Assembly (NCBI GenBank): GCA_030652805.1
Contig: JAUSPT010000070.1
Span: 1-12,902 of the forward strand
Direction: 5' to 3'
DNA from: a bacterium
GTDB taxonomy: Bacteria > JAHJDO01
DNA: 12,902 nt
The position numbers were made by a program, and so were the translations under genes. Numbering within the stretch: the stretch's first letter is position 1; each line of letters opens with the position of its first letter. The notes beneath the pieces are model-generated. The model made no database searches. It saw nothing but the letters and a program-made list of their open reading frames with translations, and had not been told where the DNA came from. Below, piece after piece: positions 6,076 through 12,902 of this stretch.

Positions 6076-6468
6076 TTACACTGTTTCATAATTTAATGTT
6101 AGCTTTGTTGCGCAGTCTTCAGTTATAACATAAGTTACAAACCTATGCAGTTGAAGCGCGCTTGATGGACACATTGATGTAATGGGGCCCTCAAGAGCTG
6201 CTCTGATCGCATCAGCTTTATTTGCGCCGGCTGCAAGCAAGACAATTTTCCTTGATTTCATTATGGTTCCGATCCCCATTGTTATTGCCTGTGTCGGGAC
6301 GTCTTCCTTTTTTTCAAAGAATCGCGCGTTATCTGATATTGTCTCTGCAGTTAGTGTCTTTATTCTTGTCAAAGACCCAAGAGAAGAACCAGGCTCATTG
6401 AATCCAATATGTCCATTGCCGCCAATTCCAAGAACCTGATAATCAATACCTCCTATTTCATCTATCAT
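6076..6468 (-). CDS. nagB: nagB, C-terminal part (reading frame after an internal stop)
   Basis: This 130-residue open frame holds the second half of glucosamine-6-phosphate deaminase: [17 protein letters not shown] (the catalytic His and the Glu of FNEP are present), [25 protein letters not shown] and SALQLH near the end. It is in the same frame as the N-terminal half and is separated from it only by TAA-AAA, so the ATG at 6468 lies 3 nt after the stop. There is no Shine-Dalgarno; it could be translated only by termination-reinitiation, or by readthrough. Its own TAA is 7 nt before the preferred pta start. It is best regarded as part of a broken gene or a sequencing artefact, with a split but reassociating enzyme as a remote alternative. 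Confidence 0.75.
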
Positions 6469-6471
6469 TTT

Positions 6472-6819
6472 TTATTCATGGCAGGATGCATCAATATCCT
6501 CTGCCATCCCGTTGGGGACATGAGTATTTTTCTTTAATATATTGACATGGTCAAACAGATTCTCATTCATGAAGTATCTATAACTTTGATTATGAGCTGG
6601 GTCAAGTCCTACATATTCGTCCAGATTAAATGTTATCACAGTAGAAAAATCCATTTCTCCGGCTTTGCTTCTTTCTACGAAGTCTTTGTAGAGTGGCAAA
6701 GGTGTACTGCCTGTTGCAAGACCCAGTACAAAACTGGTTTTTTTCTTCATTTCCCCTGCGATCAAATTAGCTGCCTTCTTTCCCATTTCTTCAGCATTCT
6801 TTACAATTATGACTCTCAC
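6472..6819 (-). CDS. nagB: nagB, N-terminal part (truncated by an in-frame TAA)
   Basis: This 115-residue open frame is the first half of glucosamine-6-phosphate deaminase (GlcN-6-P to Fru-6-P plus ammonia). It has FVLGLATGSTPLPLYKDFV (sugar-phosphate loop), VITFNLDEYVGLDPAH with the catalytic DEY, SYRYFMNENLFDHVNI and HVPNG. The GTG start has AAGGAG upstream. The frame ends at CHE followed by TAA, exactly where other NagB proteins have C-x-x-Y-E. The alignment resumes one residue short in the same frame, consistent with loss of 3 nt turning TAT-GAA-AAA into TAA-AAA. The two halves together span about 246 residues, a normal NagB length. It is the first gene of the nagB-pta-ackA-glmU-like operon and is divergent from the kinase gene. 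Confidence 0.85.
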   Translation of the reverse strand: MRVIIVKNAEEMGKKAANLIAGEMKKKTSFVLGLATGSTPLPLYKDFVERSKAGEMDFSTVITFNLDEYVGLDPAHNQSYRYFMNENLFDHVNILKKNTHVPNGMAEDIDASCHE

Positions 6820-6892: not shown

Positions 6893-6932
6893 ATATAAAA
6901 GTTTATTTTAAGTAAAGTATTGAGTGCATAAC

Positions 6933-7730
6933 ATGAAACTTGCTGGATATGAGGTCATTAGAAAGATTGCTTCCGGTGGTATGAGCGATGTGTTTCAGGC
7001 AAAGAGGCTCTATGACAATAAATTAATTGCTATAAAGTTAATTAACTCGCACATATCAAAAAATACAGAAGCAGTGAAAAGATTTTACGCAGAAGCTGAG
7101 CTTGTGATGGGATTGAATCATCCTAATATTGTCGAGGTTTTTTCTCTGGAAAGGAATAAAAAAACGCCTTTTATAACAATGGAGTATATAGAAGGAAAAA
7201 CATTAAGGGAGCTTCTTAATAAAAAACGTCTACTTGATAATCAGACCATTATAAATATTAGTCTGGATATAACAAAAGGACTGGAATATATTCACTCTAA
7301 AGGAATTATTCACAAGGATATAAAGCCTAAGAACATTCTTATTACAAACACTACAGCTAAAATAAGTGATTTTGGAATTGCTTCCTATGGGCTGACTGCG
7401 TATTCTCATAGACAGGGAGCTCCTAGCTATATGTCTCCGGAACAGATCAAAGGAAGAGATATTGACCACAGGACTGATATATACAGTCTTGGAATTACAA
7501 TGTATGAAATGGCAACTGGCCAAGTGCCCTTCAAGGGATCCGGAGATCGGGAGATACTGACAAAGCACCTAGGTCTTAAGCCCAGATCCATAAAACAAAT
7601 CAATAGCGAAATACATCCAAATATTGAAAGCACCATTATGAAAATGCTTGAAAAATTACCTGCAAATAGGTATCAGACTGCAAGCATGCTGCAGCTTGAC
7701 TTACTTGAAATCAATATGGAACTCTCCTAG
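6933..7730 (+). CDS. Small soluble Hanks-type Ser/Thr protein kinase
   Basis: These 265 residues are almost entirely kinase domain: a glycine loop ASGGMSDVF at 13-21, the VAIK lysine at K35 (IAIK), alpha-C Glu near 54-56, catalytic loop HKDIKPKN at 127-134, DFG at 147-149, and an APE-equivalent SPE at 168-170 followed by DIYSLGITMYEMATG. The usual HRD is HKD, so the arginine that contacts phosphorylated activation loops is a lysine; other catalytic residues are present and the enzyme is probably active. No signal peptide, transmembrane segment or sensor domain is present, unlike PknB-type receptors. A GTG at 6924 is in frame, but ATG 6933 gives the more usual kinase N-terminus (MKLAGYEVIRKI); neither has a strong Shine-Dalgarno. 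The substrate is unknown. It is tail to tail with rpoN. Confidence 0.9.
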   Translation: MKLAGYEVIRKIASGGMSDVFQAKRLYDNKLIAIKLINSHISKNTEAVKRFYAEAELVMGLNHPNIVEVFSLERNKKTPFITMEYIEGKTLRELLNKKRLLDNQTIINISLDITKGLEYIHSKGIIHKDIKPKNILITNTTAKISDFGIASYGLTAYSHRQGAPSYMSPEQIKGRDIDHRTDIYSLGITMYEMATGQVPFKGSGDREILTKHLGLKPRSIKQINSEIHPNIESTIMKMLEKLPANRYQTASMLQLDLLEINMELS

Positions 7731-9975: not shown

Positions 9976-10383
9976 TTAAGGATCGGTCAATTTTTTTAAT
10001 TTTATCAATACTGGAATTTTATCTTTGCCCGGTTTACCACGTTGTATATACGCTTTATGCGAAGGCTTATAAACAACAAGTGCAAATTCACTGCCTCGTT
10101 CAAACCTATCATACGGCTTAAAAAATCCATCTTTATCTGTTCTTCTTTCCTTTACAGCAACCACTTTATGCACCGCACCTGCAAGCGCAAGCGTGATTCT
10201 TTCTTTTGTCCACTTCACCGCCACATAAGCTCCTTCAATCGGCTCTCCAGTGTCCGCATCAACTACCTGGATTTTTCTGTCTTCTGCTTTTGATAAGAAG
10301 TGATAGCCCATGCAAAAGGCGGAGGTTGTGGTTAGGAAGATTAAAGCCAAAACTACACAAACCCATAATTTATTCTTTAACAT
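9976..10383 (-). CDS. Secreted transthyretin/Ig-like (carboxypeptidase-regulatory-like) protein, intact paralog
   Basis: This 135-residue protein has a signal peptide: basic start MLKNK, then a hydrophobic segment ending LIFLTTTSAFC. The mature part contains QVVDADTGEPIEGAYVAVKW and later TDKDGFFKPYDRF, the pattern of small beta-sandwich domains of the carboxypeptidase regulatory-like (transthyretin-type) class. It should be exported. Cys follows SAF, which is not a good lipobox, so signal peptidase I processing seems likelier than lipidation. It ends with a lysine-rich strand (IPVLIKLKKL). AAGGA precedes the ATG, and the start is 4 nt after the stop of the upstream paralog, so they form one operon. 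The specific function is not known. Confidence 0.75.
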   Translation of the reverse strand: MLKNKLWVCVVLALIFLTTTSAFCMGYHFLSKAEDRKIQVVDADTGEPIEGAYVAVKWTKERITLALAGAVHKVVAVKERRTDKDGFFKPYDRFERGSEFALVVYKPSHKAYIQRGKPGKDKIPVLIKLKKLTDP

Positions 10384-10387
10384 TATT

Positions 10388-10951
10388 TCATTCCTTTTTT
10401 CGTTTTTTTAAACTCTTTTCTCTTATATCTCTACATTTGCTAGATTCTTTTCTGGCCATACTCTCCCATTTTGTATCGCTAAAAAATACTCGAGCATTTA
10501 TAAGAACATGCGTATACTCCTCCGTCATTTCATAGCCCTCTGGCAGTTTTTTGAGTTTGATAATTTTATCAAACTTCAGCTTGCCTTTTTTGATTGAGGG
10601 AGGTCCTCCATACGTATATCCTATTTTCCAAGCTGACATTTCCAGAAAACTTCCATATTTCCACTTGCTCTTAAACGGATGAAACTCTCCATTCTTGTCT
10701 GTTTCTAACTCTATAATCTTTTTCGTTACTGAATTTGGTCCTCCAACATTGAGTAATATTTCCAAAAGTGGATATTTCTTCTACTTAAGCACCACCCACG
10801 CTCCCTCAATCGGCTCTCCTGTGTCTGCGTCAACCACCTGCATTGTCTCATACTTCTTCATCCACTTTGTGCCGAAGCCGAAACAAAAGGCTGAGGTTGT
10901 GGTTAAAAAGATTAAGGCAATTGTTAATAATGATATGTTTATTTTACGCAT
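10388..10951 (-). pseudogene. Secreted Ig-like paralog interrupted by an amber codon
   Basis: From ATG 10951 (AGGAG 9 nt upstream) a 56-codon frame encodes a signal peptide ending LIFLTTTSAFC and then QVVDADTGEPIEGAWVVLK, nearly identical to the downstream paralog. A TAG at 10783-10781 follows. The same frame continues without further stops to TGA at 10390-10388, giving KKYPLLEILLNVGG and ETDKNGEFHPF, again matching the paralog (TDKDGFFKP). The paralog has Trp (TGG) at the TAG position, so a single G-to-A change explains the interruption. The second part (about 130 codons) has no good start or Shine-Dalgarno and would lack a signal peptide. Without the stop the product would be about 186 residues with a C-terminal tail rich in Lys/Arg. 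It is probably a pseudogene or an assembly error. Confidence 0.7.
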
Positions 10952-11194: not shown

Positions 11195-11395
11195 TCAGCT
11201 GTATTTTGAAGTGTCAACTTCCTTCTCTGGCTCAATCATGGCAATAAGTTTCTCCACGTCCTTGTATTTAAAGACAATCTCATTATCTAAGCGATAGGCT
11301 TTAATCTTTTTGCTCTTAATAAGTTCTAACATTTCTGCTCTACCGAGCTTTAACGTCTGCTGAACCTCGTTCCTTGTTAGATATTTTCCTGCCAT
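11195..11395 (-). CDS. Small HTH (excisionase/MerR-like) DNA-binding protein
   Basis: This 66-residue protein has the layout of a helix-turn-helix type 17 / excisionase-like winged helix: YLTRNEVQQTLKLGRAEMLELIKSKKIKAYRLDNEI followed by a strand and FKYKDVEKLI. Such proteins bind DNA as small regulators, or act in site-specific recombination; here no recombinase gene is present. GAGG precedes the ATG by about 5 nt. The start is 14 nt after the stop of the kinase-PilZ gene, so it is probably the second gene of the unit controlled by the c-di-GMP riboswitch and could be its transcriptional output or an autoregulator (inference). Confidence 0.75.
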   Translation of the reverse strand: MAGKYLTRNEVQQTLKLGRAEMLELIKSKKIKAYRLDNEIVFKYKDVEKLIAMIEPEKEVDTSKYS

Positions 11396-11409
11396 TTTCC
11401 CTCGTTTCT

Positions 11410-12579
11410 TTATTTAATACTCTCCACAAATTTAGAAAGGGACTCTTCTCTTTCTTTATCGTTTGAGACAAATTGTATGCCAATATTGCAATCTTCTTTC
11501 TTGTGTAAATGCCAGATTATTTGACCATTTAGTTCTAAATATTTCTGAATGTCTAGCACAGGAATTCTCACTTGGAGCCTCATCTTCTCTTTTATTCTAG
11601 AATGCTCTACATCTTTATGTCTCGGTATTCTTATACGAACCCCGCCAAGACTTATGTCCTTTGTGTAGCCATAATATCCAATTAAATGTTTTGTTAAATC
11701 ATTTTGCAATCTCAGCTCAACCCCAATATTAACAGTATACCGCGGATATTTTCTTCTCTCTTGATCTATCCAACTAGTTGTTTTTACAGTTCTTTCTATA
11801 TCTAAAACCAACTCCTCTATGCTTTGATACCTTTCAGCAGGATCAATATTAAGAGTTTTTAAGACAATGTCCTCAAAACCCTTGAATATTTCTTGATTAT
11901 AAACTCGTGGCGGTTTAATAGACATATTTAGTTGCTGAGAAACAATTTGGGCAAGAGTCTCTCCATTAAATGGTCTCCTACCTGTTGCAAGTTCATACAT
12001 AACAACTCCAAGAGAGTAAATATCAGACCGTTCATCTCCTCTATATCCTTTTACTTGTTCAGGAGACATATAATGTGGAGTACCAGCTCTTTCTCGTACT
12101 TTCATGCTATATTTGTCCTTTTCATAAGCTAAACCAAAATCTATTATTTTCACGTCACCACCTTTTGTCAAAATTATATTCCTGCTTTTTATGTCCTGAT
12201 GAATAACGCCTTTTTTGTGAATATACCCAAGTATGTCACATACTTTAAGAATTATACTGATGTAATCCTTTGAGATAGCACCATGCGCTTTTATCAGCTC
12301 TCTCAAGTTATATCCGTCAATATATTCCAGTATAATATATTGAGAATCTTTCTTTTCCCCGAAGTCGTACACCTTGGGAATATTTTCATGACTTAATTTC
12401 TTCATTATTTCAGCTTCGTGAAAAAATCTGTCGATACGTTTTTGGTCAGTATCAGGCTTTATCTGCAGTATTTTAATAATTACATTTGTTTTGCCTTTAA
12501 TCCCTAGATAAATATCTGTAAAATCAGTAGAAGTAAGATATTTATTTATTTTATATCCTGATAAGTATTTTCCAATCAT
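11410..12579 (-). CDS. Ser/Thr protein kinase with C-terminal PilZ (c-di-GMP-binding) domain
   Basis: This 389-residue protein is cytoplasmic, with no membrane segment. Residues ~9-265 are a Hanks-type kinase: K36 in VIIK, catalytic loop HQDIKSRN at 127-134, DFG at 147-149, SPE at 172-174 and DIYSLGVVMYELATGRRPF. The glycine loop is degenerate (LTSTDFTDIYLG, no GxGxxG) and HRD is HQD, but the catalytic Asp129, Asn134 and Asp147 remain, so it may be weakly active. Residues ~274-376 are a PilZ domain: RKYPR (RxxxR, R276 and R280) and DISLGG (DxSxxG, 308-313), the two c-di-GMP-binding motifs, then ending in NIGIQFV. Binding of c-di-GMP is therefore predicted to control the kinase or its targeting. 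An in-frame TTG at 12600 lies inside the terminator stem; ATG 12579 gives the usual kinase start MIGKYLSGYKI and is chosen, although it has no clear Shine-Dalgarno. An HTH gene follows 14 nt downstream. Confidence 0.9.
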   Translation of the reverse strand: MIGKYLSGYKINKYLTSTDFTDIYLGIKGKTNVIIKILQIKPDTDQKRIDRFFHEAEIMKKLSHENIPKVYDFGEKKDSQYIILEYIDGYNLRELIKAHGAISKDYISIILKVCDILGYIHKKGVIHQDIKSRNIILTKGGDVKIIDFGLAYEKDKYSMKVRERAGTPHYMSPEQVKGYRGDERSDIYSLGVVMYELATGRRPFNGETLAQIVSQQLNMSIKPPRVYNQEIFKGFEDIVLKTLNIDPAERYQSIEELVLDIERTVKTTSWIDQERRKYPRYTVNIGVELRLQNDLTKHLIGYYGYTKDISLGGVRIRIPRHKDVEHSRIKEKMRLQVRIPVLDIQKYLELNGQIIWHLHKKEDCNIGIQFVSNDKEREESLSKFVESIK

Positions 12580-12581
12580 AG

Positions 12582-12619
12582 AAATAAAAAACCCATCCAA
12601 GCCCTGACCTGAATGGGTT
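12582..12619 (-). terminator. Intrinsic terminator of the c-di-GMP riboswitch (expression platform)
   Basis: On the minus strand AACCCATTC (12619-12611) pairs with GGATGGGTT (12598-12590) around a 12-nt loop, followed by a U-tract (TTTTATTT). It lies between the aptamer and the ATG at 12579. The 5' arm AACCCA (12619-12614) can alternatively pair perfectly with TGGGTT (12641-12636) at the 3' side of the aptamer. Ligand binding would thus favour the terminator, giving an OFF switch (inferred). Confidence 0.8.
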
Positions 12620-12627
12620 CCCTTTTT

Positions 12628-12727
12628 ATTTCGGCAACCCAGCTACCATAAAGTTTACAACCTCTTAGGTCTGTAGGCTTTGCGTCCTATCCTTTCGGAT
12701 AGTTTGCCCTTATCGACTAACCTAAAT
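12628..12727 (-). promoter_or_regulatory. Cyclic-di-GMP-I riboswitch aptamer (GEMM-I)
   Basis: The minus strand carries the GEMM-I conserved elements in order. P1 pairs ATTTAGGT (12727-12720) with GCCGAAAT (12635-12628). GGGCAAAC (12709-12702) follows, then a stem CTATCC-GAAA-GGATAG (12702-12687) with a GNRA tetraloop, GACGCAAAGCC (12686-12676), and a second arm with the 11-nt tetraloop receptor CCTAAG (12669-12664) and TATGG (12650-12646), then GCTGGGTTGCC. The guanine-binding GGG, the A of GCAAAG that stacks between the bases, and the C before P1 agree with the Vibrio Vc2 aptamer; the G that is A in cGAMP-sensing variants is kept, favouring c-di-GMP. It controls the kinase-PilZ gene. Confidence 0.95.
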
Positions 12728-12759
12728 TTTCAATTAACTACCATTAAGTGTATATCACA

Positions 12760-12788
12760 ATTATCTAAAAGTCAAGAGAGTGTGTCAA
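12760..12788 (-). promoter_or_regulatory. Sigma-70-type promoter of the riboswitch-kinase unit
   Basis: On the minus strand TTGACA (12788-12783) is followed by a 17-bp spacer and GATAAT (12765-12760): a perfect -35 and a 5/6 -10. Transcription would start near 12753, about 26 nt before the aptamer. The -35 lies inside the presumed IS end beginning at 12781. An alternative overlapping promoter is TTGACT (12775-12770) with extended -10 TGATATACA (hexamer 12754-12749) and a 15-bp spacer. Confidence 0.65.
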
Positions 12789-12902
12789 CCACATTTAGAA
12801 ATGTCCGCTTTTAAAACATTTAGAAATGTCCTATTTTGTTAAGATTAGTAGTAGTAAATTTTTCTTTTTGATCAAACTTTTTCTTTTTGTTAATTATGTG
12901 CA
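12781..12902. mobile_element. Probable insertion-sequence end (left terminus, partial)
   Basis: The segment begins TGTGTCAACC, which looks like an IS terminal repeat, and continues with two ACATTTAGAAATGTCC repeats and two polypyrimidine repeats TTTTTCTTTTTG (12859-12870 and 12878-12889). No ORF is seen up to the window edge. This is the layout expected for the non-coding end of a transposon whose transposase lies to the right. The boundary at 12781 is inferred; no target duplication can be checked. Confidence 0.5.
12791..12831. repeat. Tandem palindromic repeat, two copies of a 16-bp motif at 25-bp spacing
   Basis: ACATTTAGAAATGTCC occurs at 12791-12806 and 12816-12831. Each contains a 6-bp dyad, ACATTT-AG-AAATGT. 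Two phased palindromes next to a presumed IS terminus suggest binding sites for a transposase or repressor. Confidence 0.8.

Follow-up and report, generated by a model that had tools for sequence, protein, structure and literature searches.

Does the same second messenger control both the synthesis of a signaling protein and the activity of that protein once made, and if so, with which sign at each level? The question is raised by a locus in a 12,902-nt stretch of bacterial DNA (contig JAUSPT010000070.1; hereafter the window), in which a preliminary description placed a c-di-GMP riboswitch ahead of a Ser/Thr kinase-PilZ gene and a small helix-turn-helix (HTH) regulator. All of these features lie on the minus strand, in the order insertion-sequence (IS) end, promoter, aptamer (12718-12630), terminator (12623-12586), ATG (12579), kinase-PilZ gene (to 11410), and HTH gene (11395-11195). 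The interval originally delimited, 11195-12727, encloses the whole unit of riboswitch and two genes.

The identity of the RNA is clear. The RF01051 covariance model matched 12630-12718(-) over its full length (1-87 of 87) with 83 bits against a gathering score of 35 (E 1.6e-15, cmscan), which bears out the GEMM-I (c-di-GMP-I) aptamer read by eye on this strand. A scan of the window's genome returned no second RF01051 element. An A at the position of G20 in the Vc2 aptamer favours cGAMP. By alignment position, the equivalent base here is the G at 12708, which fits c-di-GMP as the predicted ligand, and a cGAMP switch is not favoured. This position has been described as a selectivity factor (PMC9262584).

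Between the aptamer and the ATG, we found an intrinsic terminator that was absent from the preliminary description (12586-12623(-), terminator scan and folding). Its hairpin has a 13-bp core (12590-12619), and its T-tract ends ~6 nt before the kinase-PilZ ATG. In each of three genomes, the terminator has a folding energy of -19 to -20 kcal/mol and unbroken pairs. Folding also yielded an alternative structure for the same 5′ leader: the aptamer 3′ strand UGGGUUGCC (12633-12641) is predicted to pair as an antiterminator with GGGAACCCA (12614-12622), whose AACCCA doubles as the base of the terminator 5′ arm, making antiterminator and terminator mutually exclusive. When the growing transcript was folded, the antiterminator was the most stable free fold at 105 nt and stayed so up to the synthesis of the terminator 3′ arm, and in transcripts of 105-125 nt it was the free minimum, ~9-15 kcal/mol below the aptamer-held fold, in three genomes. 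In the full-length leader, the terminator fold wins in all three. In each genome, the predicted antiterminator excludes both the aptamer and the terminator, which is the arrangement of Cd1, an OFF switch described with a T+H terminator and a T+A+H antiterminator (PMC9262584).

Based on this folding, the platform is predicted to be of the Cd1 OFF type: c-di-GMP holding the aptamer would let the terminator form, so that the bound ligand should stop transcription. The earlier account had given the control no sign, and the OFF direction is an addition to it. It is important to note that the antiterminator complementarity was equalled by 348 of 5,000 shuffled arms (7%) and is not significant alone; because such complementarity is not rare by chance, the OFF direction is a prediction. 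Six paired leader positions vary between the genomes, with a standard pair kept at each. All six changes are one-sided, and the three close leaders contain no compensatory double change that would prove the structure by covariation.

Our best explanation, in which we place moderate confidence, is a transcriptional OFF-type c-di-GMP-I riboswitch over a two-gene operon whose kinase-PilZ product then senses the same messenger. At low c-di-GMP, UGGGUUGCC would pair with GGGAACCCA, the terminator would come too late, and the operon would be made. At high c-di-GMP, the ligand would hold the aptamer, the arm would be left free, and the terminator would form just before the ATG, stopping transcription. 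Kinase that had already been made would bind c-di-GMP via its PilZ domain, changing its activity or targeting, and it might be directed towards the HTH protein. The binding, the kinase activity, and the HTH partner are assigned here by analogy with what is known of each family.

Besides its copy of the leader, the sister genome G001 contains two c-di-GMP-I aptamers (L005 1501-2284 and L004 1074-1584) separated by 6.5 kb. The genes behind both encode secreted-looking products without a Pfam match, and the L004 platform has a separate terminator. By folding, L005 follows the opposite logic, resembling the pilM riboswitch, in which an aptamer strand lies inside the terminator and the ligand turns expression ON (PMC9262584). 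With L005 of the ON type and the kinase leader of the OFF type, one organism may use c-di-GMP both to turn a surface gene on and to turn a kinase off. L005 also bears on the sign at our locus, as do the GEMM-I switches of both signs that exist elsewhere (PMC9262584) and the start region itself, where the kinase-PilZ ATG has no Shine-Dalgarno sequence at the usual spacing and the sole similar bases, GGATGGG, sit within the hairpin just before it. These points speak for a switch in which c-di-GMP would turn the operon ON, via another alternative fold or exposure of the start region. We nevertheless find this decidedly unlikely, since the aptamer 3′ strand belongs to the terminator's competitor and not to the terminator, as in the OFF logic of Cd1.

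Transcription into the leader probably starts from a native promoter, TTGACT-17-TACACT (12747-12775(-), 9/12 in a consensus scan). Its -10 reads TATACT in the sister genome, and the promoter sequence is common to G001 and a third genome, G002. Abutting it, ~65 nt upstream of the aptamer, is an IS end that had gone unmentioned (12783-12902(-), outside the riboswitch proper), composed of two copies of GGACATTTCTAAATGT and then GGTTGACA. We considered the tandem repeat as an operator and rejected this: GGACATTTCTAAATGT has 27 copies in the genome, many of them ~90-130 nt from contig ends, and the IS end sequence recurs in an intact IS copy with a 423-aa transposase-like ORF. The outward TTGACA of the IS end and a native GATAAT (12765-12760), spaced by 17 nt, form an 11/12 promoter match, so that the IS end may supply a hybrid promoter. 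In this strain alone, transcription into the riboswitch may have increased as a result of the insertion.

The first gene of the operon (11410-12579(-), Pfam and homologues) encodes 389 aa. A Pfam search gave a Pkinase domain at residues 19-252 (~11824-12525, E 2.5e-49) and a PilZ domain at residues 274-386 (11422-11760, E 6.1e-15), in agreement with the fusion first proposed. The PilZ motifs, described as intact RxxxR and DxSxxG, indeed read R276-KYP-R280 and D308-ISLG-G313. Across 13 related PilZ domains of the genus, R276, R280, S310, and G313 never vary, and position 308 is D or N; the PilZ fold with RxxxR and (D/N)xSxxG is that of c-di-GMP-binding PilZ domains. An AlphaFold model of the domain alone (13 homologues) reached pLDDT 80, and its best Foldseek matches are c-di-GMP-bound PilZ structures, namely BcsA, YcgR, VCA0042, Alg44 (E 4e-6 and weaker for these four), and MapZ. 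Searching the PDB by sequence, single or profile, returned no PilZ match, only chance ones. A model of the whole protein (7 homologues) had a mean pLDDT of 38 and was discarded. Motifs and domain model together support a canonical c-di-GMP site, and binding is predicted.

In the kinase domain, the catalytic residues K36, E57, D129 (HQD), N134, and D147 (DFG) are invariant in homologues, as expected of a Hanks-type kinase. The glycine-rich loop departs from GxGxxG: it reads YLTSTDFTDIYLG (TSTDFTDIYLG), with the usual glycines gone. The kinase assignment is still strong despite this loop, given the Pkinase match, and activity is predicted. The degenerate loop does lend something to the view that the riboswitch works while the PilZ or kinase domain is inactive, leaving sensing at the RNA level only. 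So does Pkn1 of Myxococcus xanthus, which holds a Ser/Thr kinase and a PilZ domain in one protein and whose PilZ domain, by prediction, does not bind c-di-GMP (PMC8316039). Weighing against these the invariant catalytic residues and two PilZ motifs that are intact and conserved, unlike the Pkn1 prediction, we judge sensing by the RNA alone to be unlikely. The window's genome has 5 GGDEF matches, 4 of them above the cut-off, and 12 PilZ domains.

The second gene begins 14 nt after the first and encodes a 66-aa excisionase-like HTH_17 DNA-binding protein (11195-11395(-), Pfam E 1.1e-6), matching the small regulator anticipated there. Homologues of it occur next to genes for kinases or PilZ proteins. 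In three genomes of the genus, a PilZ-free kinase, 66-71% identical, is encoded beside genes that we take to be miaA and an hldE-type gene from our own reading of the sequences, without a family search; in two of the three, a related HTH_17 gene is next to it, and the kinase of such a pair is 66-68% identical to the window's. This kinase is probably the older, housekeeping paralogue. The PilZ module of the window's protein recurs in fusions with a PTS EIIA domain (fructose/PtsN type), and in L048 it stands alone with an HTH gene adjacent. Given the PilZ-free paralogue and the PilZ module in other contexts, the kinase-PilZ protein looks like a domain-shuffling product of the genus.

Several other observations were made in passing. 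The PTS EIIA-PilZ fusions (L042 941-1774; L046, L049-L051, and L053), one of which lies directly before a kinase-PilZ gene, possibly tie c-di-GMP directly to the phosphotransferase system. The window also contains a stand-alone Ser/Thr kinase (6924-7730(+), 39% identical) that adjoins an rpoN-like gene, and the genome has several such kinases. A glucosamine-6-phosphate deaminase-like frame at 6076-6819(-) is split by one in-frame stop and is either a pseudogene or an assembly error. At 10388-10918(-), a small secreted protein like that at 9976-10383 is broken by one in-frame TAG.

Whether the riboswitch truly belongs to this operon can be judged from relatives, which in the phylum comparison were five searchable genomes, all of one genus. 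In G001, the leader, kinase-PilZ gene, and HTH gene follow one another in the same order as in the window, with identities of 96.5%, 96%, and 100%, respectively. In G002, the leader and terminator are likewise present, with all pairs intact, but the stretch homologous to the window runs only as far as the start codon, and the kinase is missing behind it. Downstream of this leader (L003/L047 269-560) lie first a short ORF and next a recombinase region, with the gene for an integrase-type recombinase ~400-460 nt further on. G002 encodes two kinase-PilZ proteins (80-81% identical) without an aptamer, and one of these genes has TGGGTTATTTATTTCT, almost the terminator 3′ end, directly before its ATG, which suggests that the leader once stood before that copy and was then lost. 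The layout sought in relatives was thus present in G001, whereas in G002 the leader and kinase-PilZ genes are apart.

The situation in G002, together with the IS and integrase-type recombinase beside these regions, would also be expected if the riboswitch were real and the kinase a chance or recent passenger, with the leader being a cassette, mobile or older, that truly serves a different gene. We consider such a passenger improbable: the linkage is common to two genomes, leader and kinase show about the same conservation between the window's genome and G001, and the terminator-like remnant suggests loss rather than gain. Adjacency, a terminator directly before the ATG, and the same order in the sister genome instead assign the riboswitch to the kinase operon, as originally presumed. 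With leader and kinase apart in G002 and a remnant at one copy, the link appears real but young or fragile; considering also the IS end at the window copy, we regard the linkage as genuine in two genomes and mobile across the genus.

The target had been called unusual, and we examined this across 385 bacterial genomes, 74 of which had a strong c-di-GMP-I match. Outside the genus, up to 3 kb was searched downstream of 100 GEMM-I aptamers, which came from 53 genomes. None of these 100 neighbourhoods contained a related kinase by a profile built from the window's kinase family, and two contained PilZ genes (in L156 as the second gene; in L180 ~2.4 kb after the aptamer). In L156 (183-2028), from an unrelated genome, the order is aptamer, pilus-like gene, PilZ gene, possibly another case of a riboswitch and a protein receptor in one operon. 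Among the 95 mechanically called first reading frames, subtilases, N-methylated pilins, fibronectin III, and secretion-tail domains were the commonest, and GGDEF and EAL proteins appeared twice each. Among the sampled targets, it is surface and secreted proteins that predominate. In the literature, the usual targets of c-di-GMP riboswitches are genes for motility, adhesion, and the cell surface, and genes of c-di-GMP metabolism are rare ones (PMC6366702).

We found no report of a c-di-GMP riboswitch controlling a Ser/Thr kinase in literature that was searched short of many subscription papers. Outside the genus, no kinase-PilZ protein covering both whole domains was among the matches listed for the four best candidates per genome in the 385 genomes, a depth at which rare cases may be missed. 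The claim of an unusual target therefore holds for the absence of related kinases from the sampled neighbourhoods, but the kinase-PilZ fusion itself is not new, as Pkn1 demonstrates (PMC8316039). Both parts are of known kinds. What is unusual is that they occur together, and this combination has good support at the sequence level, with its function predicted.

If the circuit operates as proposed, two receptors for one messenger, one RNA and one protein, would be wired in series, with a kinase as the protein. Vc2 binds c-di-GMP at ~1 nM and an E. coli PilZ domain at ~840 nM (PMC12564702). Since riboswitches usually bind c-di-GMP much tighter than PilZ proteins do, a two-threshold circuit could arise, and since the platform predicts that synthesis is turned OFF, the RNA and protein levels may oppose each other. 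A more tentative extension, possible but doubtful in our estimation, is that c-di-GMP acts with opposite sign at the two levels: the leader would shut off kinase synthesis as the messenger rises, while PilZ would, at higher levels, activate what kinase is left, and phosphorylation would come as a pulse-like or band-like output. If true, this output would connect Ser/Thr phosphorylation and an HTH regulator to c-di-GMP.

Known systems resemble different parts of this arrangement. The GEMM-I switches before surface, pilus, and cyclase or phosphodiesterase genes belong to the same aptamer family and have a probable promoter-aptamer-terminator layout in common with ours; unlike the window, the sampled ones have no related kinase target. 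The PilZ-free kinase-HTH pair has an HTH_17 neighbour as in the window, without PilZ and without a riboswitch. Pkn1 has the same domain pair, but its PilZ domain is the predicted non-binder and the window's is the one with both motifs intact; no report of a riboswitch before Pkn1 was found in the literature searched. The closest parallel in control is Cd1 of the flagellar operon of Clostridioides difficile, a c-di-GMP-I switch whose terminator is separate from the aptamer and whose antiterminator uses the aptamer 3′ strand with OFF logic (PMC9262584), as predicted here. Cd1 has been measured and controls flagella, whereas the window's switch is predicted, precedes a kinase-PilZ/HTH operon, and, unlike Cd1, has a terminator that abuts the start codon.
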